A stretch of DNA of 64,000 nt from Rhodanobacter sp. (GTDB lineage Bacteria; Pseudomonadota; Gammaproteobacteria; Xanthomonadales; Rhodanobacteraceae). Shown piece by piece: positions 5,547-17,388 of the stretch; the first letter of the stretch is position 1; the number at the start of each line of letters is the position of its first letter. Position numbers and translations under genes: made by a program. Location of the stretch: the NCBI GenBank assembly GCA_040371205.1, contig AP031382.1, positions 2,477,562 through 2,541,561 on the forward strand. Direction: 5' to 3'. The notes beneath the pieces are model-generated. The model did no database searches and was not told the DNA's origin. It was given only the letters and a program-made list of their open reading frames with translations.

Positions 5547-6815
5547 CTATGCGCCAGCCCTGCTCTGCGCGTGCCGCACCTGACCTTCGCCGCGCACCAC
5601 GAATCGCTCGATGGTGAGCGATTCGGCGCCCATCGGCCCGTAGGCGTGCAGGCGTGTGGTGGAGATGCCGATCTCCGCACCGAGGCCAATTTCGCCGCCG
5701 TCGCTGAAGCGCGAGGAAGCGTTGACCATCACCACCGCGGAGCGGATCGCCTGCACGAATCGCTGCGCCGCCGCCTCGTCGCGGGCGGCGATGACCTCGG
5801 TGTGGTCGGAGCCGTAGCGGCGGATGTGGGCGATGGCGCCGTCGAGATCGTCCACCACGCGCACGGCGAGGATCAGGTCGAGGAACTCGGCGGCGTAGTC
5901 CGCGTCGGTGACGGGCTTCGCATCGGGCACCAGCGCACGGGTGTCCGCATCGCCGCGCAGCTCCACGCCGCGCTCGCGCAGCGCCCGCGCGGCGCGCGGC
6001 AGGAAGCCGGCCGCCGCGTCGCGGTGCACCAGCAGCGTTTCCAGCGCGTTGCACACGCCGGGGCGCGAGGTCTTGCCGTCCACCAGCAGGTCCAGCGCGA
6101 GGTCGAGGTCGGCGCTGCGGTCCACGTAGAGATGGCAGACGCCCTTGTAGTGCTTGATGACCGGCACGCGCGCATGCTCGGCGACGAAGCGGATCAGCCC
6201 CTCGCCGCCGCGCGGGATGGCGAGGTCGACGATGTCCGTCAGCTGCAGCAGCTCGACCATGGCTTCGCGGCGCAGGTCTTCCATCAGCGTGACGACGGCC
6301 GCCGGCAACCCGTGCGCGTGCAGGGCGTCGTGCAGCGCTGCGGCAATGGCGGTGTTGGAATGGATCGCCTCGGAACCGCCGCGCAGGATCACCGCGTTGC
6401 CGGCCTTGAGGCATAGCGCCGCGGCGTCGGCGGTGACGTTGGGGCGCGCCTCGTAGATCATCGCCACTACGCCCAGCGGGATGCGCACGCGTTCGACCAC
6501 CAGGCCGTTGGGACGCGTCTCGCGGCGCGTCACCCGGCCCACCGGGTCGGGCAATCCGGCCACTTCGCGCAAGGCGTTGGCGATGCCGGCCACGCGCGCC
6601 TCGTCCAGCCGCAGGCGGTCCAGCATCGCACCCTGCACGCCCTTGGCGGCGGCCTGCGCCAGGTCCTGCGCGTTCGCGGCGAGCACGTCGGCGCAGCGCA
6701 CCTCCAGAGCCGCAGCCATGTCGCGCAGCAATGCAGCCTTGGCGGCGCCGTCCAGCGCGGCGATCGCCGGCACCGTCTCTCGGCAGGCCAGCGCCAGGGA
6801 ACGGATCTCGCTCAT
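5547..6815 (-). CDS. proA: Glutamate-5-semialdehyde dehydrogenase (gamma-glutamyl phosphate reductase)
   Basis: 422 residues, full length. Second step of proline biosynthesis: NADPH-dependent reduction of gamma-glutamyl phosphate to glutamate semialdehyde. Aldehyde-dehydrogenase superfamily marks are visible: [17 protein letters not shown] near 112, the catalytic cysteine C255 in [12 protein letters not shown], and the C-terminal [25 protein letters not shown]. The ATG overlaps the proB stop by 4 nt (ATGA), implying translational coupling. It is the last clearly assigned gene of the arginine/proline operon. Confidence 0.97.
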
Positions 6816-7981
6816 GCGGTCATGCCTCCCGTGGTTTCGACGGCGACGAGATCGTCGCGGTGCACGACTTCGCTGCCGTAGCTGTAGCCGAGCAGCGCCT
6901 CGATGTCGCGACTGTGCCGGCCGGCAAGCCGGCGCACCTCGCCCGCGGCGTACTGGCTGAGACCACGCGCCACGGCCTTGCCGCCAGCGTCGACGATCTC
7001 CACCAGGTCGCCGCGCTGGAACTCGCCCTGCGCACCGGCCACGCCGCCCGGCAGCAGCGATGCGCGCCCGCCCGCCAGCGCACGCGCCGCGCCGTCATCC
7101 ACGCGGATGCAGCCCGCGGCGGCCGGCGCGTGGCGCAGCCAGTACTTGCGCGCCTGCAGGCGCGTGGCGGCTGCATCGACCAGGGTGCCGCGCAGGCGGT
7201 CGCGGCCGAGCGCCGTCACCGTCGCCGCGTCGCGGCCGTTGAACAATGCCGTGGGAATGCCCGCCGCCGCGGCCTTGCCGGCCGCTTCCAGCTTGGTGCG
7301 CATGCCGCCGGTGCCGACCGCGCTGCCGCTGCCGCCGGCCATCGCCAGCACCTCGGGCGTGAGCGTCTCGACATGCTGGACCGGCGTCGCCCGCGGATCG
7401 CGTCGCGGGTCGGCGTCGTACAGCGCATCGATGTCGGAGGCGATCAGCAGCAGATCGGCATCGACCAGGGCGGCGACGATGGCGGCGAGGTTGTCGTTGT
7501 CGCCCAGCTTCAATTCGTCCACGGCCACGGTGTCGTTCTCGTTCACCACCGGCAGCACGTCCAGCGCCAGCAAGCCGCTCAGCGTGGCGCGCGCGTTGAG
7601 GTAACGGCGGCGGTTGCGCAGGTCGTCGTGGGTGAGCAGCACCTGCGCCACCGGCCGCGCAGCAAGGGACTGCCACAGCGCGATCATCGGCGTCTGGCCC
7701 AGCGCCGCCAGCGCCTGCCGCGCGGCGAGGTCGCCCGCGACCGGCGCATGCGCGCGCAGCAGGGCGCGTCCCGCGGCCACCGCGCCGGAGGAAACCAGCA
7801 CCACTTGCCGGCCTGCGGCGTGGCTGGCCGCCACGAACCCGGCCAGGTTGGCCGCGTAGCGATCGGTCAGGCCGCCGCCGTCCGCTGCCAGCAGGTTGCT
7901 GCCGACCTTGAGCACGGCGCGGCGCCAGCTCGGCAACGGCTGTTCGCGCAAGTGCCCCGCACTTTCCACAACAGCCGCCAT
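6812..7981 (-). CDS. proB: Glutamate 5-kinase with PUA domain
   Basis: 389 residues. First enzyme of proline biosynthesis, phosphorylating the gamma-carboxyl of glutamate. The amino-acid kinase domain (about 1-275) shows [19 protein letters not shown], the [11 protein letters not shown](K)xGDNDNLAA active-site region, and [14 protein letters not shown]-terminal PUA domain (about 290-375) is present, as in the E. coli enzyme, where the kinase is feedback-inhibited by proline. It lies 11 nt after argH and overlaps proA by 4 nt, so glutamate flow into proline and arginine is written on one transcript. Confidence 0.96.
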
Positions 7982-7992
7982 GATTGCCTCGT

Positions 7993-9288
7993 TCAGCCGT
8001 CTAGACGTCCAAGCCTAGCACGCAATTCGTGCAGGCGAAGATCGTTTCCCGCGCCCGGCGAAACGCGTTGCGCGAGGCTGCCTTCGGGCGTCCGGCCTTG
8101 TCCCGCCGAGGCCGCCGCCTCGGCGGCGGCGCGGTAGGCGTCGCGGAACGGCACGCCCGCGGCAGCCTGCTCGATGGCCACGTCGGTGGCGTACATCGCC
8201 GGCTCGATCGCCGCACGCATCGCGGCCCCGTTCCATTCCATCCGCGCCAGCAGGTCGGGTACCAGCTCCAGCGCCATCAGGCCGTGGCGCACGCCGTGGA
8301 AGATCGATCCCTTGGAGAACTGCAGGTCGCGCTGGTAGCCCGAGGGCAGCGACAGCAGCTGCTCGATCTCGGTGCGCGCGGCCGCCACGCTGGCGTAGCT
8401 GGCGCGCAGCAGCTCCACCACGTCGGGGTTGCGCTTGTTCGGCATGATCGAGCTGCCAGTGGTGTACTCGGCCGGCAGCTTCACGAAATCGAATTCGGCA
8501 GTGGTGAACAGCGACAGGTCCCAGGCCATGCGGCGCAGATCCAGCATCGCCGCGCCGATCGCCTCCAGCACCGCCATCTCGTACTTGCCGCGCGAGAGCT
8601 GCGCGTAGATGGGCGACACCTGCATGCGCATGAAACCGAGCGCCGCCGTGGTGTGCTCGCGGTCCAGCGGCAGGTTCACGCCGTAGCCGGCGGCGGTGCC
8701 CAGCGGGTTGGCGTCGACCAGCTCGCGCGTGCCGCGGGCGCGGAAGGCGTTGTCGATGAAGCCCTCGGCGAAACCGGCGAACCACATCGCAGTGGACGAG
8801 ATCACCGCGCGCTGCAGGTGGGTATAGCCCGGCAGCGGAATGGCCGGCTGCGCGGCGCGCTGCAGACAGACCTCGGCGATGGCGCGGCAATGCGCCTCCA
8901 GCGCCTCAAGCTTTTCCTTCAGCCACAGCCGCGTGGCGACCAGGATCTGGTCGTTGCGGCTGCGCCCGGTGTGCACGCGACGGCCGGCGTCGCCCAGGCG
9001 CTCGGTGAGGCGCGCCTCGATGGCGGAATGGCCGTCCTCGTAGCGCTCGTCGAGCACGAAGCTGCCGTTGCGAAAGTCTTCCGCCAGCGCATCCAGCTCG
9101 CGCTTCAGCGCAGCCGCCTCGTCCGCGCTCACCACGCCGATGTTGGCCAGGCCTTCCACGTGCGCCTTGCTGGCGGCGATGTCGTGCAGGAAGAACTCGC
9201 GGTCGAGGATCACGTCGTCGCCGGCGAGGAAGCGCATGATCTTCGCGTCGATCTGGACGCCGCTTTTTTGCCAGAGGGGTTGGGTCAC
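7993..9288 (-). CDS. argH: Argininosuccinate lyase
   Basis: 431 residues. Final step of arginine biosynthesis: argininosuccinate to arginine plus fumarate. The fumarase/aspartase superfamily loop is [12 protein letters not shown] near residue 280; the N-terminal part carries the DVILDREF and HTGRSRNDQ motifs. The start is taken as GTG at 9288 because it is preceded by a near-perfect AAGGAG at the right spacing and gives the family N-terminus (TQPLWQKSG). The upstream open frame runs through argC without homology. It follows argC by 14 nt. Confidence 0.95.
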
Positions 9289-9302
9289 GGTGGCTCCTTG
9301 GC

Positions 9303-10274
9303 TCAGCCGAGCGGGATTGCGGTGTATTCGTCCACGCCGATGGCGCGGTTGATGTTCTGCATCGCCTGTGTCGCGGCACCCTTGAGCAGGTTGTCCAGTG
9401 TCGCTACCAGCACCACGCGCTTGCCGTCCGCCGACAGCGCGAAGCCGCCGATCTCGACGTGGTGCTTGTGGGCGATGCGGCTCACCCACGGCGCCTCGTC
9501 CAGCACGCTCACCAGTTTCTCGGTGCCGTAGGCATGGTGGAAGCGCGCGCGTATGTCCTCGCGCTTCGCCGGCCGGGCGAGATACAGGTTGGTAGTGACG
9601 GTGAGGCCGCGGAAATGCGGCGCCACGTGCGGCATGAACTCCACCGGCAAGCCGAGCTGGTAGCTGACTTCCTTCTCGTGCATGTGACCGGTGAGCGCAT
9701 ACGGCATCAGGTTGTCGCGCAGCTTGTCCGGGTCGTTCTTGTCCGACGGCGTGGTGCCCGCGCCGGAATAGCCGGACACGCCGAAGCACACCGGCGGCGC
9801 GGCCAGCAGCTCCTTCAGCGGCGCGATGGAAAGCTGCATCGCCGTGGCGTAGCAGCCGGGGTTGCTGATGCGCCGGCTTTGATTGGTACCGTCGCCGCGC
9901 CACTTGTGGCGGGTGAGTTCGGGCAGGCCGTAGTACCACGCCTGCTCGAAGCGGTAGTCGGCGGAAAGATCGACCAGCACCGTGTTCGGCGCATTCGCGT
10001 CGATGGCCTCCACGTAGGACGACGCCTTGCCGTTGGGCAGGGCGAGGATCACGACGTCGGCGCGCTTGGCCGCCACCGCGGCGGGATCGAGGCTTTCGTA
10101 GTGCAACTCGCCCGCGTAGGCGTCGCTGTGCTCGCTGACGCGCTGGCCGTCCAGCTCGCGCGAGGAGACGAAGCCCAGTTCCAGCGCCGGGTGCGCCGCG
10201 ATCAGGCGGATCAGCTCCGCGCCGGTGTGGCCGCGCGCGCCGACGATGCCGATGCTTTTCTTCTGCTGTGTCAT
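9303..10274 (-). CDS. argC: N-acetyl-gamma-glutamyl-phosphate reductase
   Basis: 323 residues. NADPH-dependent reduction of N-acetylglutamyl phosphate to the semialdehyde. Visible: Rossmann start [13 protein letters not shown] (9-21), DLSADYRF (102-109), catalytic cysteine C141 in [15 protein letters not shown], and HxHE-type [11 protein letters not shown]. Its neighbour argB lies 7 nt upstream and argH 14 nt downstream. The next enzyme, acetylornithine aminotransferase ArgD, is not in the window. Confidence 0.96.
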
Positions 10275-10281
10275 GCCGCCC

Positions 10282-11601
10282 TCACCCGATCAGCGTCGGC
10301 TGCCGCTGCGCGCAATGCGCCACGCAGCGGGCAATGGTGTCGAAATGGCCGTCGAGGCCGTACCAGAACACCTTCCATTTCTCCTGCTTGAAGCAGCCGT
10401 CGGACTCGGCGTAGTAGAAGATGTTGACCTGGTTGCCGTGGCGCGAACGCCAGAACAGTTGCGGATTTTCCTCGCGCATCACCTGCCACACGGCGCGGCC
10501 GAGGCCCTCGCCCTGCGCGTCGTCGAGCACGGCGAACTTGTCCAGATACGGCAATCCGTCCTCCAGCGTGAGGATCATCGCCGCGCGGTAGTTCTCGCTC
10601 ACGTAGATGCGGTGCGGCGCGGTGCGCTCGAAATAGTCCGCCACCAGCTCGCGGCCGAAGCTGGATTCGATCAGCTCGCGCATGCGTGCACGGTCGATGC
10701 CTTCCCACGACTCGAAGCGCAGCACCTTCTCGCCGCGCCGCACCAGGGTGCCCGAACCCTTGTGGGTGAACAGCTCCTTGGCCAGCTCGGCAGGACGCGT
10801 GATCGACACCGACGAGGTGAGCGGCAGGCCGTTCAACAGGTCCGCGATCTGCTCGATCTTCAGGCGCATGCCGCCGTTGATCCACGGCTGCGCCATCAGG
10901 TGCTCGTACTCGGTGCTGAGGTTGATCGAGTCGATCAGCTTGCCCTCGCCGTCGAGCAGGCCACCGGTACCGGTGAGGAACACGATCTTGTACGGCTGCA
11001 GCATGCGCACCAGTTCGTTGGCGGCGACGTCGGCGTTGATGTTGAGGATCTGCCCCTCGTCGGTCTCGCCCAGGCTGGCGATTACCGGGATCGAGTTCGC
11101 GCGCAGGCTGGCCTCGATCGGCGCAAGGTTGATGCTCTCCACCTTGCCGACCATGCCCAGCGCCTCGCGGTCGAGGTAACTCGCCGCGAATACGCCCGAA
11201 GGCACGGCGGTGGCGCGCGTGTCCATCGCCTGCAACGCCTCGACCAGCTTGAGGTTCTGCTGCATGAACACCTTGCGCACGATGCCCAGCGCCTTCGGCG
11301 AGGTGACGCGCAGGCCGTTCACCGTCTGCTTGACGATACCGGCGGCGGACAGCTCCTCGTCCAGCTGCGGGCCGGCGCCGTGCAGCACGATGGGCGTGAG
11401 GCCCACCTGCTGCAAGAAGGTCAGCGAGGAGGCGAGGTCCTGCAGCTCGTCGCGCAGCACCGCACCGCCGACCTTCACCACGGCGAAGCGCTTGGCGTCG
11501 ACTTCGGAAAAGCGCTTGAGGTATTGCTGGATTTCCTTGGCGCTGCCCATCGCCGACAGCAGGCGGACGATGGTCTTGCGCGTATGCGTATGGGCTTCCA
11601 C
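10282..11601 (-). CDS. argB: Bifunctional N-acetylglutamate synthase/kinase (NAGK plus C-terminal NAT domain)
   Basis: 439 residues, far longer than a stand-alone acetylglutamate kinase (about 260-300). Residues about 35-290 are the amino-acid kinase domain: VVKVGGAVL with K43, [18 protein letters not shown], and LTGTGGLLD. Residues about 300-439 are a GNAT-like domain of the NAT type found in the vertebrate-like NAGS-K of Xanthomonas and Maricaulis ([33 protein letters not shown], and a C-terminal [10 protein letters not shown]). In those bacteria this protein performs both the first and second steps of arginine synthesis and substitutes for ArgA. No separate argA or argJ is present here. 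The domain assignment is from motif reading. Confidence 0.92.
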
Positions 11602-11607
11602 GATGGA

Positions 11608-12702
11608 TCAGCTCTTGTCGATGAGGTGGTGGATGGTTTCGGCGTAGTGCTGCAACTGCGCCAGCGACACCCATTCGTCGGCGGTGTGCGCCTGCGCGAT
11701 GTCGCCGGGGCCGTAGACGAAGGCGATGTAGCCGGCGGCGGAGAACAGCGAGGCCTCGGTCCAGAAATCCACCGCGTTGCCCACGGGGATATCCAGCTCG
11801 TCGGCCAGGTCGCGCGCCGCCAGCCGGCGCGCCTCGGCGGTGGCCGTGTCGCCCGCCGGCAGCGAGGGGCCACGGAAGGTTTCCTCGAAATGCGCGGGCG
11901 CGACCTCGGCCAGCGCGCGGAAGCGTTCGAGCAGGTCGTCGGGATGCATGGTCGGCAGCGGCCGCATGCCGAAGCGCACCTCGGCGCTGGGCGCGATCAT
12001 GTTGGCCTTGATGCCGCCTTCGATGCGGCCGACGTTGAAACGCAGGCCGGTGAGGCCGCCGAAGCGCTCGTGCGATTGCGCGGCCACGAAATCCAGCGCC
12101 GCATCGCCCCAGCGCACCGCCTGGTGCAGCGCGCTGTCGCCGGGCTTCTGCTCGCCCGAGGCATGGCCCGCGTGGCCGGCAAAGCGCATCAGCACCGACT
12201 GGATGCCGCGATGCGCCAGCACCGCCTCGCCCCTGGTGGGCTCGGCGACGATCACCGCGTCGTAGGCCGGCTTGCCCTTGAGGAAGCCGGCGATGCAGCG
12301 CGGATCGTTGGCCTCCTCGTCGGTGGTGAACAGCAGCGCCATGTCGCCGTCGCTGGCGTTCGCCACGGCGAGCAGCGCCGCCGCCGCACCCTTGATGTCG
12401 CAGGCGCCGAGGCCGATGGCGCGATCGTCCGTCACGCGCAGTTCGTGCGGGCTGGCCGTCCACGCCGGCGAATCGGGCACCGTATCCAGGTGCACGTTGA
12501 ACAGCAGCCGCGGCCGGCCGCGCACCGCGTGCAGGCCCACCGCACCGGCGCCGTGGTCGGTCACCGTGATGGCGAAGCCGGGCAACTGCGCGCGGAGGTA
12601 GTCGAAGATGCCGCCCGTGGTGATCGCGCGCGGCGGGTTGCGGGTGTCGAACGACACCAGCGCCTTGAGATGTTGCAGGGTGGATTGCAGCAAGGGATTC
12701 AT
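11608..12702 (-). CDS. argE: N-acetylcitrulline/N-acetylornithine deacetylase (M20 family)
   Basis: 364 residues of the M20 metallopeptidase fold. Metal-binding HLDTVP near 70, the TTDEEAN acidic pair near 125, EPTRGEAVLAHRG, and the C-terminal DFWTEASLF are visible. Because the cluster encodes an acetylornithine carbamoyltransferase (argF'), the natural substrate is expected to be N-acetyl-L-citrulline, as shown for the Xanthomonas campestris homologue, rather than acetylornithine. That substrate choice is inference from context. The ATG at 12702 overlaps the upstream GNAT stop by 4 nt, and argB follows after 5 nt. Confidence 0.9.
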   Translation of the reverse strand: MNPLLQSTLQHLKALVSFDTRNPPRAITTGGIFDYLRAQLPGFAITVTDHGAGAVGLHAVRGRPRLLFNVHLDTVPDSPAWTASPHELRVTDDRAIGLGACDIKGAAAALLAVANASDGDMALLFTTDEEANDPRCIAGFLKGKPAYDAVIVAEPTRGEAVLAHRGIQSVLMRFAGHAGHASGEQKPGDSALHQAVRWGDAALDFVAAQSHERFGGLTGLRFNVGRIEGGIKANMIAPSAEVRFGMRPLPTMHPDDLLERFRALAEVAPAHFEETFRGPSLPAGDTATAEARRLAARDLADELDIPVGNAVDFWTEASLFSAAGYIAFVYGPGDIAQAHTADEWVSLAQLQHYAETIHHLIDKS

Positions 12703-13139
12703 GGGTGGCCTGGCGCTCTCGTGTAGACGTCGCGGTCGAGTTTTTCCATCAGGGTCTGCGGCTGCGCGGGCGCGGCGAAACCGAAGCCGGCATACAGTCC
12801 GTGCGCGTCGCTGGTGGCGAGGCTGAAACGGCGCAGGCCCTGCAGTTGCGGATGCGCCATCACCGCCGCCACCAGCGCCTTGGAGTATCCCTGCCCGCGA
12901 TGCTCCGGCAGCACGAACACGTCCGCGAGGTAACCGAAGGTGGCGCCGTCGGTGACCACGCGCGCGAACGCCACCTGCTGGCCGTCGACGTAGCCGCCGA
13001 AGCACAGCGAACCGGCGACCGCCCGCTCCACCGTCGCGCGCGGGATGCCGCGGCACCAGTAGGCCTCGGTGGCGAGGAAGCGGTGGATCAGCCCGAGGTC
13101 GAGGCTATCCTTGTCCGTGCTGACCTGCAGGACGGCCAT
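12699..13139 (-). CDS. GNAT family N-acetyltransferase embedded in the arg operon
   Basis: 146 residues with the GNAT core: VFVLPEHRGQGYSKALV (acetyl-CoA pyrophosphate-binding motif A, near 85-100) and a C-terminal LYAGFGFAAP. Substrate not predictable. It is set tightly between argG (5 nt upstream) and argE (4-nt overlap downstream), so it is almost certainly expressed with arginine biosynthesis. A role on an arginine-pathway intermediate is possible, but the NAGS activity is better explained by the NAT domain of ArgB, so this protein looks accessory. Confidence 0.85.
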   Translation of the reverse strand: MAVLQVSTDKDSLDLGLIHRFLATEAYWCRGIPRATVERAVAGSLCFGGYVDGQQVAFARVVTDGATFGYLADVFVLPEHRGQGYSKALVAAVMAHPQLQGLRRFSLATSDAHGLYAGFGFAAPAQPQTLMEKLDRDVYTRAPGHP

Positions 13140-13144
13140 GCGGC

Positions 13145-14350
13145 TCAGGCCTTGCCCGCCGGCCGGTTCACCTCGGCCCACAGCGTGCTGCTCATGCCGA
13201 ACAGCTTGATGAAGCCCTCGGCCTCGGCCACGCCCCAATCGGCAGACTGCGCGTAGGTGGCGCCCTTGGCGTTGAGGATGTGTTTGGACGCGACGGCCAC
13301 GGCGTGGACCGTGCCGCCGCTGGTCTCCAGCGTCACCTCGCCGTTGACGGTGGACTGGCTGGAGGCGAGGAAGGCTTCCAGGTCGCTCTTCAACGGATCG
13401 TGGAAGAAGCCTTCGTACACCACCTCCACCCACTTGCGCGCCACGTCCGGCTTGAAGCGGTTCTGCTGCTTGCTGAGCACGGCTTCTTCCAGCGCGCGGT
13501 GCGCGGCGAGCAGCGAGACCAGGCCGGGCGCCTCGAACACGATGCGGCCCTTGAGGCCGATGGTGGTGTCGCCGGTGTACATGCCGCGGCCCACGCCGTA
13601 GGGCGCGAACAGCGCGTTGAGCTTCGCCAGGATCGTGTGCCCTGCGAGCTTCTCGCCGTCCAGCGACACCGCCTCGCCCTGCTCGAAACCGATCTTCACC
13701 TGCAGCGGTTTGGACGGCCATTCGGCGCGCGGCTTGCACCAGCCGCGCGCGCCCTCGCCCGGGGCTTCCCATTTGTCGATCTCGCCGCCGGACATGGTGA
13801 CGCCGAGCAGGTTCTCGTTGATGGTGTAGGCCTGCTGCTTGGCGCGCACGCCGAAGCCGCGCTCCTCCAGGAACTTCTGCTCGTAGGCGCGCGTCTGCGT
13901 GTGCTCCTTCTGGATCTCGCGGATCGGCGCCACGATCTCGTAGTCGCCCAGCGATTTCACCGCGAGGTCGAAGCGCACCTGGTCGTTGCCCATGCCGGTG
14001 CAGCCGTGAGCGATGGCGCGCGTGCCGAGTTCGGCGGCGCGCTGCAGCGCGGCCTCCACGATCAGGTAGCGGTCGGACACCAGCAGCGGGTACTGGCCCT
14101 GGTAGCCCTCGCCCGCCCACACGAAGGGCTTGACGAAACCGTTCCAGATCGCGGGGCCGCCATCAATCGTCACATGCGAAGCGACGCCCAGCTCCTTCGC
14201 GCGGTGCTCGATGAAGGCGCGCTCCTCGGCGTCCACACCGCCGGTATCGGCGAACACGGTGTGCACGGCCCAGCCGCGCTCCTTGAGGTAGGGCACGCAG
14301 AAGCTGGTGTCGAGGCCGCCGGAGAAGGCGAGGACGATGTCTTGGCTCAT
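13145..14350 (-). CDS. argG: Argininosuccinate synthase
   Basis: 401 residues. ATP-dependent condensation of citrulline with aspartate. The N-terminal PP-loop is [10 protein letters not shown] (8-17); [14 protein letters not shown] and [14 protein letters not shown] are further family signatures. The sequence belongs to the short type-1 synthase class. It is preceded by osmC (28-nt gap, the largest inside the operon) and followed 5 nt later by the GNAT gene. The 28-nt gap contains no hairpin that I can see. Confidence 0.96.
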
Positions 14351-14378
14351 GGCTTGCGAATCCTGGTCGGGGAAGAGG

Positions 14379-14852
14379 TCAATCGGAGGAAACGACGATG
14401 CGCGGTTCGCAGCGCACCGGGAAATTCACGGAGTTGGCGATGAAGCAGGCATGGTGCGCAGCCTCGTGCGCAGCCAGCGCCTTGACGGGATCGCTGTCGG
14501 CGCGGATGGCGACCACCGGGCGCAGCACGACTTCGGCGAAGCGGCCGCCGTCGCCTTCGGTCACCATCGTGCCTTCGGCCGCGTCGTCGTAGGCCACGAC
14601 CACCACGCCGGCCACGGTGGCCATGTGCAGGTACGACAACATGTGGCAGGTGGACAGCGCGGCCACCAGCATGTCTTCCGGATTGTGCTTGGTGGCGTCG
14701 CCGCGGAAGGTGGGATCGGACGAACCGGCGAGTTCCGGCTTGCCGGGCACGCGGATCACGTGGTTGCGGCTGTAGTTGCGGTAGCCGTCGGTGCCGCTGC
14801 CGCGGTTGCCGGTCCAGACCACGTCCACGCGGTAGCGATGCGTGTGGCTCAT
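14379..14852 (-). CDS. OsmC family protein
   Basis: 157 residues of the OsmC/Ohr fold. The two redox cysteines are visible in [11 protein letters not shown] and [12 protein letters not shown]. The N-terminal [17 protein letters not shown] beta-hairpin and [16 protein letters not shown] are typical of the YhfA/OsmC-like branch rather than Ohr. Members reduce organic hydroperoxides using thiols; the physiological role of this branch is uncertain. The start overlaps the upstream PaiB-like gene by 4 nt. It is odd cargo inside an arginine operon. Confidence 0.88.
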
Positions 14853-15472
14853 GACTTGCCCTCTTCCTGTCTGGCCATCCATTCGGCCAGCGTCGCGTCG
14901 CCGTCGCCGCCGCGGCGGCGCAGGCCGGCGATCACGCCGAGGCGGTTGCGCTCCGGATGATTCTGGCTGAGCTTGAACTTGCCTTCGATGTGCTCGACGG
15001 CGATCTCGACGCCGACGATGCCGCGCAGCAGCGTCTCGACGTGGTCGTCCGGCGCGTCGCCGACGCGCCACGGCCGGGGTTCGGCGGCTTCGTGATGGTC
15101 GGTCAGGCGTTCCAGCAGCGCACGCAGCCAGGCGGCGTCCTCGACGACCTTCAGGCGACCGCGCACATGCACCACCGCGTAGTTCCACGTGGGCACTTCG
15201 CGGTGCGTCTCCGCCTTGGTCGGATACCAGTTCGGGCTGACATAGCCCTGCGGGCCCTGGAAGATCGCCAGTACGGCGGCACCGTCCATCCGGGCCAATT
15301 CATTGCCACGCGCCACATGGCCGTGCAGCGCGCCGTCCACCAGCTCCAACGGGAAATGGTTGGCGGCGACGCCATCCGCCGCATTCGCCACCACGGTGGC
15401 GAACGGGTAATCGCGGATCAGCCCCTGCAGGACTTCCGGCCGCGTCTCGACGAACGACTTGGGCATGTACAT
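14849..15472 (-). CDS. PaiB family FMN-binding protein
   Basis: 207 residues matching the PaiB/FMN-binding split-barrel family: MYMPKSFVE at the start, then the characteristic LIRDYPFATVV, ANHFPLEL, GHVARGNE, FQGPQGYVSPNWYPTK and VPTWNYAVVHVRG. B. subtilis PaiB was described as a negative regulator of sporulation and protease genes. Proteobacterial members more likely are flavin- or heme-binding proteins of unknown role. It lies 7 nt after argF' and overlaps osmC by 4 nt, so it is co-transcribed with arginine genes. Confidence 0.9.
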   Translation of the reverse strand: MYMPKSFVETRPEVLQGLIRDYPFATVVANAADGVAANHFPLELVDGALHGHVARGNELARMDGAAVLAIFQGPQGYVSPNWYPTKAETHREVPTWNYAVVHVRGRLKVVEDAAWLRALLERLTDHHEAAEPRPWRVGDAPDDHVETLLRGIVGVEIAVEHIEGKFKLSQNHPERNRLGVIAGLRRRGGDGDATLAEWMARQEEGKS

Positions 15473-15479
15473 GGCGGGC

Positions 15480-16487
15480 TCAGCGCTGGCCGATCAGCGA
15501 CGCCATCACCGCCTTCTGCACGTGCAGGCGGTTCTCGGCTTCGTCGACGGCGATGCAGTACGGCGCATCCATCACGCCGTCGGTGGCCTTGACGTTGCGG
15601 CGCAGCGGCAGGCAATGGCTGAAGAGACCGTTATTGGTCAGCGCCATCTTGGCCTCGTCCACGATGAAGTGCTTGTGTGCGTCGCGGATGGGTTTCTCCT
15701 GCTCCCACTGGCCGAAGTAAGGCAACGCGCCCCAGCTCTTGGCATAGACCACGTCGGCGCCGGCATACGCCTCCTCGATATCGTGGCTGACCGTGAGCGA
15801 ACCGCCGTTCTGCTCAGCGTTCAGACGTCCGAATTCCATGTAGCGCTCGTCCAGCACGTAGTCCGGTGTGGGGCACAACAGGGTCACGTCCATGCCCATC
15901 TTGGTGGCGATCAACAGCGCCGAATTGGCCACCGCGGTGTTGAGCGGCTTGGGGTGGTAGGTCCAGGTGAGCACGTACCTCTTCTTCGTGAGGTCACCCA
16001 GGTGCTCGCGCAGGGCCAGCGCATGCGCCAGCTCCTGGCAGGGGTGGGTAATCGTCTCCATGTTGATCACCGGCACCGTGGCGTACTGCGCGAAGGCCTT
16101 GATGACCTTGTCCTGGCGATCCACCGACCAGTCCTGGAACTTCGGGAAGGCACGCACCGCGATCAGGTCGACGTAGCGGCTCAGCACGCGCGCCACTTCG
16201 GCGATGTGTTCCTCGGTGTCGCCGTCCATCACGCTGCCGGCCTCGAACTCGATCGGCCACGCGTCCTTGCCCGGCGCCAGCACCACCGCATGCCCGCCGA
16301 GCTGGAACGTGCCCAGCTCGAAGCTGGTGCGCGTGCGCATCGAGGGATTGAAGAACAGCAGCGCCACCGACTTGCCGGCGAGCTGCGTGCCCGCGGGCGA
16401 ACACTTGAAGGCAGCGGCCTGTTCAAGCAGCGCGTCGATCTCGGCGCGGCTCCAGTCCTGGGTGGTGAGGAAATGGCGGATGGTCAT
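15480..16487 (-). CDS. argF': N-acetylornithine carbamoyltransferase (AOTCase)
   Basis: 335 residues. Carbamoylates N-acetylornithine to N-acetylcitrulline. The carbamoyl-phosphate motif is FNPSMRTRTSFELG (47-59), with SMRTR instead of the STRTR of OTCases. Residues matching the acetyl-group determinants of the Xanthomonas campestris enzyme are E92 in DGDTEEH and E144 in NMETITHPCQE. The lysine of HCLPLRRNVK (K300) corresponds to the carboxylated lysine of that enzyme. HPCQ binds carbamoyl phosphate. The ATG at 16487 matches the family N-terminus; the frame upstream would begin inside the terminator hairpin and is not used. First gene of the arg/pro operon and the one directly behind the putative attenuator. 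Confidence 0.93.
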   Translation of the reverse strand: MTIRHFLTTQDWSRAEIDALLEQAAAFKCSPAGTQLAGKSVALLFFNPSMRTRTSFELGTFQLGGHAVVLAPGKDAWPIEFEAGSVMDGDTEEHIAEVARVLSRYVDLIAVRAFPKFQDWSVDRQDKVIKAFAQYATVPVINMETITHPCQELAHALALREHLGDLTKKRYVLTWTYHPKPLNTAVANSALLIATKMGMDVTLLCPTPDYVLDERYMEFGRLNAEQNGGSLTVSHDIEEAYAGADVVYAKSWGALPYFGQWEQEKPIRDAHKHFIVDEAKMALTNNGLFSHCLPLRRNVKATDGVMDAPYCIAVDEAENRLHVQKAVMASLIGQR

Positions 16488-16567
16488 GGGTCGAATCGCC
16501 TCGATGGAATCGTTCTTGGTTGAAAGTCCGGCCGCGGACGGATCCGGGTGAAGCAAAGCCAAAAAGC

Positions 16568-16595
16568 AAAAACCCGGCACGCTGGCCGGGTTTTT
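16568..16595 (-). terminator. Intrinsic terminator in the argF' leader (attenuator stem)
   Basis: An 11-bp perfect stem (AAAAACCCGGC with its complement) and a 6-nt loop are followed on the minus-strand transcript by TTTTTGCTTTTT. It lies 81 nt upstream of the argF' start, inside the untranslated leader. The 5' arm segment ACCCGGCC (16584-16591) is perfectly complementary over 8 nt to GGCCGGGT in the upstream leader peptide end (16628-16635), so terminator and antiterminator are mutually exclusive. The strongly stable stem with a U-run is what one expects of a regulatory terminator. Alternatively it only ends transcription from 16843-17388. Confidence 0.85.
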
Positions 16596-16625
16596 CGTCG
16601 ATACATGTGAAATGCGTGCGACAGC

Positions 16626-16673
16626 CTACCCGGCCGGATGTTCGTCCAGCGGTCGGCGCGCGCGCGACGTCAT
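16626..16673 (-). CDS. Putative arginine leader peptide of the arg operon attenuator
   Basis: A 15-codon frame, MTSRARRPLDEHPAG, with Arg codons CGC, CGC and CGA at positions 4, 6 and 7, ends in TAG 30 nt before the terminator stem. The last codons (CCG GCC GGG TAG) contain GGCCGGGT, which pairs with the 5' arm of the terminator. A ribosome stalled at codons 4-7 for lack of Arg-tRNA would leave this segment free to form the antiterminator; one reaching the stop would cover it and allow termination. The ribosome binding site is weak (GGCGG upstream) and no clear promoter -35 box is seen, though TATACC lies about 40 nt upstream. Three Arg codons in 15 is modest in GC-rich DNA; the geometry is the stronger argument. 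Confidence 0.6.
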   Translation of the reverse strand: MTSRARRPLDEHPAG

Positions 16674-16810
16674 GCCAGCCGCCATGCGGGCGCTGGTCAG
16701 GACATTGGCGGTATAGACGGCTGTGGACACGGGAGGTTCCAGTCGGGCGAACCGTCATCATGACGGGATTTTCGCTGCCGTGCAACATGCGTCGCGGGCA
16801 GCACAAGCGG

Positions 16811-16835
16811 AGACGCCGCCTTGGCGGCGGCGTCT
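16811..16835 (-). terminator. Hairpin just after the glycine-zipper gene
   Basis: A 10-bp perfect stem (AGACGCCGCC with its complement) and 5-nt loop start 7 nt beyond the stop of the minus-strand gene at 16843-17388. There is no U-run after it on that strand, so it is a weak or Rho-assisted terminator, or an mRNA 3' end stabiliser. Its presence makes the second hairpin at 16568-16595 less needed as a terminator for this gene, which supports the regulatory reading of that one. Confidence 0.55.
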
Positions 16836-16842
16836 TCGGGAG

Positions 16843-17388
16843 TCAGTCGGCGGGAGTCACGCTCACCCTTACGCGCAGGCGCTCGCCCGGATCGTAGTTC
16901 ATGCGGGACTCGTAGACCTCGCCGCGGTAGCGGTATTCCACGTCGTAGCCCACGATCTGGCGCTGCTCGCTCACCGTGTTGACCATGGTGCAATTGGTCT
17001 GGGTGGTTTCGTAGCTGCCGCCGTGATCGGAGACGCTGTTGCCCACCGCGCCGCCCGCGACCGCACCGACCACGGTGGCCGCACGGCGGCCATCACCCTT
17101 GCCGATGGTGCTGCCCAGTACGCCGCCCACCACCGCACCGAGGATGGTGCTCGCCGTGCTGTTGCCGCGGTCATGCTGGACTACCTGCTGGTCGTAGCAC
17201 TGCTGGCGCGGCACGTTGGCCTGCACCACGCCGTACACCGGATCGACCCGCAGCACGTCCGCCCAACCGAAGTGGGCGTTGTCGTCCTGCTGGGCGCCCG
17301 GCGGCGGCCCGGGGTAACGCGCATCCTGCGCCTGGGCGCTGGTGGCAACCAGACCCAACATCAATGTGGCAACGAGAAACTTGGACAT
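16843..17388 (-). CDS. Glycine-zipper 2TM (17 kDa surface antigen-like) envelope protein
   Basis: 181 residues. An N-terminal signal peptide ([21 protein letters not shown], cleavage after AQA) is followed by a polar stretch and then a glycine zipper: [21 protein letters not shown] and [14 protein letters not shown], the Rick_17kDa_Anti/glycine-zipper 2TM pattern. The C-terminal part ([32 protein letters not shown]) is the typical beta-rich end of these proteins. There is no lipobox cysteine at the cleavage site, so it is likely periplasmic or outer-membrane associated rather than a lipoprotein. Role probably envelope integrity; not specific. Confidence 0.88.

Follow-up and report, generated by a model that had tools for sequence, protein, structure and literature searches.

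The window, a stretch of 64,000 nucleotides of Rhodanobacter sp. DNA, carries on its minus strand a run of genes that begins with argF' (Table 1), and the locus raises the question of how transcription of this run is controlled. Wherever gene starts could be set, the genes followed each other with short gaps or overlaps (argH excepted), and an aldehyde-dehydrogenase family protein occupied the place expected for proA. At E 1e-100, argF' was found in 208 of 250 genomes of the order; in a class-wide sample it was found at that value or better in 5 of 369 genomes, all five within the order. The ArgR regulon of gammaproteobacteria covers the same pathway but relies on a DNA-binding repressor (PMC5343134, accessible part), and ArgR (PF01316) was detected here in only 2 of 61 genomes, both of family f12, with no match in the Rhodanobacter genome of the window. 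Matches in 9 of 14 control genomes, including E. coli and B. subtilis, served as a control for PF01316. In f12, argF' was not found at E 1e-100. Because ArgR was not found in the window genome, attenuation fits as its replacement. The element upstream of argF' is very probably a ribosome-mediated transcription attenuator of the argF'-argH-proBA run, set by the supply of charged tRNA-Arg.

The leader frame and its promoter

An initial annotation of the window had described a 15-codon frame upstream of argF', opening with an ATG at 16673 and containing three Arg codons before a TAG stop, with a hairpin and a U-tract behind it. The Arg codons, the stop and their positions were recovered, as were the hairpin and the U-tract (Table 1), but the length of the frame had to be revised. 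The frame stays open 5' of ATG 16673, both in the window and in aligned relatives, and a start codon is conserved 34 codons before the stop: it is GTG 16730 in the window, and among the 90 aligned f1 loci 82 have ATG, 4 have GTG and the remaining 4 some other codon (f-numbers are family labels; the loci from Rhodanobacter, Dyella, Frateuria, Luteibacter and other named genera were counted as f1). ATG 16673 corresponds to leader residue 20 and is ATG in all 138 f1-f4 loci. The translated leader probably comprises the 34 codons from GTG 16730 rather than 15. A profile search with the leader alignment in the window genome returned one strong match (E 2.2e-18); the four others were weak, with E of at least 0.08. 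Two leader peptides gave no match in Pfam and NCBIfam at E up to 10, under HMMER filters that drop most weak matches.

Table 1. Features of the argF' leader and the downstream run, with positions in the window
Feature	Position	Strand	Basis or remark
Predicted promoter: -35 TTGCAC (16785-16780), 17-nt spacer, -10 CATGAT (16762-16757)	16757..16785	minus	f1 column conservation
Predicted 5' UTR, about 20 nt, with GGAA Shine-Dalgarno-like element (16740-16737)	16731..16750	minus	inferred
Leader ORF, 34 codons plus TAG, GTG start: MSTAVYTANVLTSARMAAGMTSRARRPLDEHPAG	16626..16730	minus	open frame and aligned relatives
Initially annotated frame MTSRARRPLDEHPAG	ATG 16673-16671; TAG 16628-16626	minus	upstream of argF'
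MTSRARR motif with putative sensing Arg codons CGC, CGC, CGA	16653..16673	minus	exact in 138 f1-f4 loci
Arg codons	CGC 16664-16662; CGC 16658-16656; CGA 16655-16653	minus	
Antiterminator strand GGCCGGGT (end of leader frame and first stop base)	16628..16635	minus	covaries with terminator 5' arm
Intrinsic terminator hairpin, 11 bp; 5' arm 16595-16585, 3' arm 16578-16568	16568..16595	minus	followed by GCTTTTT
U-tract TTTTTGCTTTTT	16561..16572	minus	first five T inside the 3' arm
argF', N-acetylornithine carbamoyltransferase, first structural gene	15480..16487	minus	NCBIfam NF003384, 606 bits, cutoff 288
FMN-binding, OsmC-like, argG, GNAT, argE, argB-type NAG kinase, argC, argH, proB, aldehyde-dehydrogenase family protein	5550..15472	minus	rest of run

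A TTGCA-17-CAT(G/C)AT promoter is strongly conserved among the 90 aligned f1 loci. The 5' UTR that it would set is about 20 nt long and has CCGGAA as the alignment consensus at the Shine-Dalgarno-like element, which some f1 loci do not have. A strict consensus promoter scan of the window locus reported no promoter. Transcription would be expected to start near 16750. The initial annotation had regarded a start downstream of 16673 as incompatible with an attenuator; the conserved promoter instead lies upstream of the leader, and the 5' RACE end of an RNA from Xanthomonas oryzae (PMC3039613, accessible part) falls, by the mapping made here, 2 nt before the leader AUG. Outside f1, a TTG-16/18-NANNNT promoter abuts the leader start in 70 of 92 loci, compared with 3% of shuffled upstream DNA and with 0 of 92 loci for argF' itself, under a rule that permitted several starts per frame, equally in the shuffles. 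Leader mRNA is predicted to begin at the AUG, or a few nucleotides before it, in these 70 loci. Further upstream in the window, a GC-rich hairpin was observed at 16812-16834 (minus strand), 3' of a glycine-zipper gene (16843-17388), and hairpins like it recur at a similar distance in a number of relatives.

Occurrence of the leader and pairing of its strands

Conservation was assessed in a set of 200 loci consisting of the window, 80 loci, the best of 471, from Rhodanobacter, Dyella, Frateuria, Luteibacter and others, and 119 loci from genomes of the order. An Arg-rich leader with a terminator was present upstream of argF' in 190 loci, 180 recognised by script and ten by eye (L077, L080, L141, L178, L194, L199, L201, L206, L210 and L162). 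Neither script nor eye found a leader in eight: L123 (f6), L130 (f12), and L128, L207, L212, L213, L224 and L235 (f10); the carbamoyltransferase of L130 is only 42% identical. The upstream regions of the remaining two, L057 and L185, are incomplete at contig ends. Among the 180, L234 is a doubtful member, and for L114 and L187 the script picked wrong frames, to which the true MTSRARR leader is adjacent. Conservation in relatives, on which the initial annotation had made its proposal depend, extends over ten numbered families, with clear covariation in most.

Single loci showed arrangements of their own. In L126 (G043, f8; 1000 bases) the argF' leader occurs twice in tandem on either side of an N, which may reflect a duplicated leader or an artefact of assembly. 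L207 (G220, f10) has kept the terminator, with a promoter-like site close before it as judged by eye, and no Arg-rich leader was seen between them. In L162 (G257, f2; about 120-400), nearly 300 nt separate the leader end and terminator from argF'. Inspection by eye of the regions upstream of carA and argD revealed no such leader arrangement; L240 has a strong hairpin, GACACCGCCGCTGCGGCGGTGTC, about 10 nt before the assumed argD start, which may affect argD translation.

The 8-nt complementarity described at the outset was exact, GGCCGGGT (16635-16628) matching ACCCGGCC (16591-16584). The fold of the 131-nt window segment (z = -0.64) and the energy of its leader:terminator duplex, equalled by 17% of shuffles, do not single out the element; single-sequence folds and duplex energies, which do not do so in GC-rich genomes, were set aside as support. 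At the level of sequence, it is conservation, covariation and codon choice that raise the element above chance, its fold alone being unremarkable. Pairing was evaluated in an alignment of 57 f1 and f2 loci, from the MTSRARR Met to the terminator, that was built blind to pairing; it took 57 of the 60 listed f1 and f2 stretches (all except L151, L164 and L177) and none of the ten f3/f4 stretches, from a listing that drew on 14 of 77 loci of the named genera. Between the leader strand and the terminator 5' arm, 99.2% of cells were paired, with 24 double-change cells and a covariation score of 0.188, and none of 500 shuffles reached any of these values. The double changes sit on one column pair, and the measures counting pairs with a double change and pair types were reached by 409 and 500 of the 500 shuffles, respectively. 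Sliding the alignment by one column lowered pairing to 50-57%. The terminator stem contained 36 double-change cells spread over four pairs, values that 0 and 4 of 500 shuffles attained. Judged from family labels alone, the compensatory changes would be independent.

Terminator arms vary among families (CCCGGC, CCCAGC, CCTGGC/T, GCCCAGC and CCCGAC), and the leader strand largely follows. Leader strands paired at 7 of 7 positions with their own arm in 81 of 97 loci of the ACCCGGC class and 40 of 52 of the ACCCAGC class, and with the swapped arm in 4 of 97 and 4 of 52; two of the 180 loci had no recognisable core and were excluded. In the small classes, full pairing with the own arm was found in 1 of 14 loci (GCCCAGC) and 0 of 9 (GCCCGGC), and in the former, 8 of the 14 leader strands match ACCCAGC instead, leaving a U opposite G (G-U pair). 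Overall, 158 of 178 loci had a 7-nt antiterminator core with at least 6 of its 7 positions paired. Pairing was weak in f3/f4, where 1 of 10 loci reached that level, and among the six f10 loci it was weak in half. In a subgroup of f9, GCUCUUUGG or a shorter form pairs instead with the terminator loop and the beginning of the 3' arm, a pairing that is likewise incompatible with the terminator. The mutual exclusion of terminator and antiterminator that had been read from the window is borne out by covariation across families, which is weak in f3/f4, in part of f10 and in the small arm classes.

These data bear on the reading that the hairpin is nothing but the terminator of the upstream gene and that the Arg-rich frame arose by chance in GC-rich DNA. 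The Arg criterion was built into the script selection, so the 180 loci cannot themselves test Arg enrichment, and chance did produce three Arg in five residues when GC-rich regions were shuffled, at rates of up to 18% (17.6% of dinucleotide shuffles in f1), but this rate was only 1.7% in AT-rich f9. A separate GC-rich hairpin already lies 3' of the upstream gene, a number of relatives show a terminator-like hairpin 235-290 nt upstream of the attenuator hairpin, and the conserved promoter is situated between the two; together with the covariation, this makes a chance arrangement scarcely credible.

The initial annotation had further argued that the spacing suits stalling at the Arg codons that exposes the antiterminator, and the relatives agree: the core starts 15-19 nt past the last Arg of the cluster in 140 of the 158 well-paired loci, and exactly 18 nt past it in 114, nearly all f1 or f2. 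In f9, f11 and five f8 loci the spacing was 6-12 nt, and the stop codon lies 3-39 nt past the last cluster Arg. Leaders were folded as far as the terminator loop for the 152 of 180 loci with a contiguous duplex of at least 6 Watson-Crick pairs, and the mean antiterminator pairing probability was 0.89 with a ribosome on the last Arg codon and 0.70 without a ribosome; the value of 0 with the ribosome at the stop follows by construction. In f2 the corresponding values were 0.75 and 0.35. The higher pairing with the ribosome on the last Arg codon is consistent with a stall that frees the antiterminator.

Under the attenuator reading, RNA polymerase would start just 5' of the leader ORF, with a ribosome following. 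When charged tRNA-Arg is scarce, the ribosome would stall at the Arg cluster, RARR with CGA as its final codon, and leave the strand about 18 nt downstream free to pair with the emerging 5' arm of the terminator; with the antiterminator paired, no terminator would form and the operon would be transcribed. When arginine is plentiful, the ribosome would reach the stop and cover the antiterminator strand, the hairpin and U-tract would form, and transcription would end, leaving a short leader RNA.

Without a ribosome, antiterminator pairing averaged 0.71-0.83 in f1 and was 0.98 in the window, and the f1 fold shows little of a protector hairpin of the classical form. Modelled in this way, the default in f1 without translation may be read-through. 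Since the window antiterminator forms without a ribosome, any block of leader translation could raise read-through, as would be expected if the attenuator senses translation in general (ribosome speed or initiation) and not arginine. An Arg cluster is the feature common to the leaders of different families, before an arginine operon, and we therefore consider general sensing quite improbable.

Codon choice and the nature of the signal

Among f1-f4 loci with an uncut upstream region, all 138 contained MTSRARR without a mismatch, and f5, f7, f8, f9, f10 and f11 have other Arg clusters, e.g., RRRPRPR. In these 138 loci, Arg23 was encoded by CGU (101), CGC (36) or CGA (1) and Arg25 by CGC (114) or CGU (24). 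The last codon of the cluster, Arg26, was CGA in 135 and CGU in 3, although CGA accounted for only 22 of 1416 Arg codons (1.6%) in 80 argF' genes. Throughout f1-f4, cluster codons were confined to CGU, CGC and CGA (414 of 414, vs. 87% in argF' genes). The same set made up 82 of 84 cluster codons in f8 (vs. 43 of 64, or 67%, in four argF' genes), 52 of 54 in f9 (vs. 61 of 107, or 57%, in twelve) and 30 of 32 in f10 (vs. 134 of 180 in eight). CGA enrichment was strong in f8 and f10 and not significant in f9, in tests that treat related sequences as independent and ignore shared ancestry, and CGA was absent from the three f5 clusters. CGU, CGC and CGA are, we assume, the codons of a single tRNA-Arg(ICG) with inosine at position 34, and this tRNA would be the one that reads the cluster. 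The consensus fold contains a 3-pair ACC:GGU helix that joins near-invariant bases, which proves nothing, and it was discarded as evidence, although it might give CGA an additional reason to be fixed. Leader Ser22 (16667-16665 in the window) is always TCG (138 of 138), though Ser has six codons.

The constancy of the peptide could also mean that a nascent chain ending in RARR(P), and not an empty A site, stalls the ribosome. The ligand of such an arrest peptide would possibly be arginine or a related metabolite; for the leader peptide SpeFL, the arrest ligand is ornithine. The amino acids do seem to be selected: MTSRARR is identical in f1-f4 while Thr21 uses four codons and Ala24 three, and of the 138 leaders, 137 retain A14, 137 retain A17 and 135 retain G19. 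The Arg clusters that occupy the same place in f5 and f7-f11, however, lack MTSRARR, and the bias toward CGU, CGC and CGA with its fixed CGA points to decoding. A stall at this position at high arginine would, moreover, free the antiterminator and raise biosynthesis, which is the wrong sense of response. We regard an arrest peptide as unlikely. Only tentatively can a combined scheme be put forward, doubtful as a whole, in which, in four families, an invariant nascent peptide (approximately AR-x-A-[A/S]-GMTSRARR) would set the stall jointly with a slow CGA codon that is nearly always present and is read by an inosine tRNA, with mostly near-leaderless translation outside f1, and which would have taken the place of ArgR in most of the order.

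Relation to sRNA-Xoo5 and to known attenuators

RF02242 ("Xoo5"), filed in Rfam as an sRNA, matched 10 of 20 loci tried, each time on the leader: 10 of 13 f2 loci, with scores of 100-148 bits on the argF' leaders, and none of seven from f1, f3, f4, f5, f7 and f11. As the only family matched among these 20 loci, f2 was taken as Xanthomonadaceae. The window scored 23.1 bits, below the gathering score of 50, and a scan of the window against Rfam at that score gave no match. The model has 124 positions, ends before the terminator and begins with cuAUG, its first position preceding the leader AUG by 2 nt. According to the accessible part of PMC3039613, sRNA-Xoo5 of X. oryzae lies between PXO_00354 and PXO_00353 (N-acetylornithine carbamoyltransferase) and measures 124 nt from the 5' end determined by RACE to the cloned 3' end; since model and RNA share this length of 124, the first position of the model was equated with the RACE end. 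By position and sequence, as far as that part of the paper describes them, sRNA-Xoo5 and the argF' leader of f2 are the same RNA. Northern bands of about 130 and about 100 nt are given in the same part, only the shorter being present later in growth. The leader RNA predicted to the end of the U-tract (155-159 nt) is longer than both bands and the cloned RNA, and the bands may represent something other than the terminated RNA.

A discrete RNA with its own terminator could alternatively act in trans and lie upstream of argF' by accident. Besides the detection of the RNA and its Rfam type (Gene; sRNA), this would accord with the authors' statement, in the accessible part of PMC3039613, that deletions of X. 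oryzae sRNAs left flanking-gene expression unaffected and caused no phenotype. Against it, the ORF is conserved with its amino acids kept while codons vary, the order promoter, leader, terminator and argF' recurs in ten numbered families, and the RNA pairs with its own terminator; nor was sRNA-Xoo5 among the three RNAs with changed expression without Hfq in that part of the paper. A trans-acting RNA is very improbable here, and a cis-acting attenuator remains the preferred reading. Table 4 of the same paper, as accessible, lists lower ArgG and argF' protein spots upon loss of sRNA-Xoo1, which lies in an interval between a regulator gene and thiC and had earlier been annotated as a riboswitch; these lower spots suggest that another sRNA of that set may be a 5' leader.

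Classical ribosome-mediated attenuators control the trp, his, leu, thr, ilv and phe operons. They share with the argF' leader the end-product codons in a leader ORF, the mutual exclusion of antiterminator and terminator, the U-tract and the biosynthetic operon downstream. The argF' leader differs from them in that arginine would be sensed, in codons nearly limited to the set of one isoacceptor, in the almost fixed CGA and invariant peptide motif of f1-f4, in the near-leaderless ORF predicted in most loci outside f1, and in the scarcity of a protector hairpin in f1. The fungal arginine attenuator peptide, likewise an upstream peptide linked to arginine biosynthesis, acts by eukaryotic translational arrest at high arginine, without a transcription terminator. 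Attenuation of trp and pheA is mentioned in the accessible part of PMC5343134. The Salmonella speF leader (orf34/SpeFL; PMC6386406, accessible part) resembles the argF' leader in that a short ORF upstream, containing two Arg codons in a row, lets arginine supply alter mRNA structure, but it controls ornithine decarboxylase via RNA stability, Rho and the ribosome binding site, and codon type, rare or frequent, had no effect there. SpeFL is a DUF2618 peptide, whereas the argF' leader has no Pfam match. No arginine attenuator in the order was found in titles and abstract openings among the literature matches listed, a mostly open-access scope that does not prove priority.

To our knowledge, arginine is not among the amino acids that regulate their own biosynthesis by transcription attenuation; the argF' leader, if it works as proposed, would add it to these end products. 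It would also explain an Rfam sRNA without known function, and the restriction of its codons leads to a sharp prediction regarding one tRNA isoacceptor and its inosine modification. The presence of proB and a proA-like gene downstream in the same run implies that proline synthesis may follow arginine supply. For the order as a whole (Rhodanobacter, Dyella, Xanthomonas and relatives), in which ArgR was rarely detected, the attenuator would provide a regulator of the arginine pathway.
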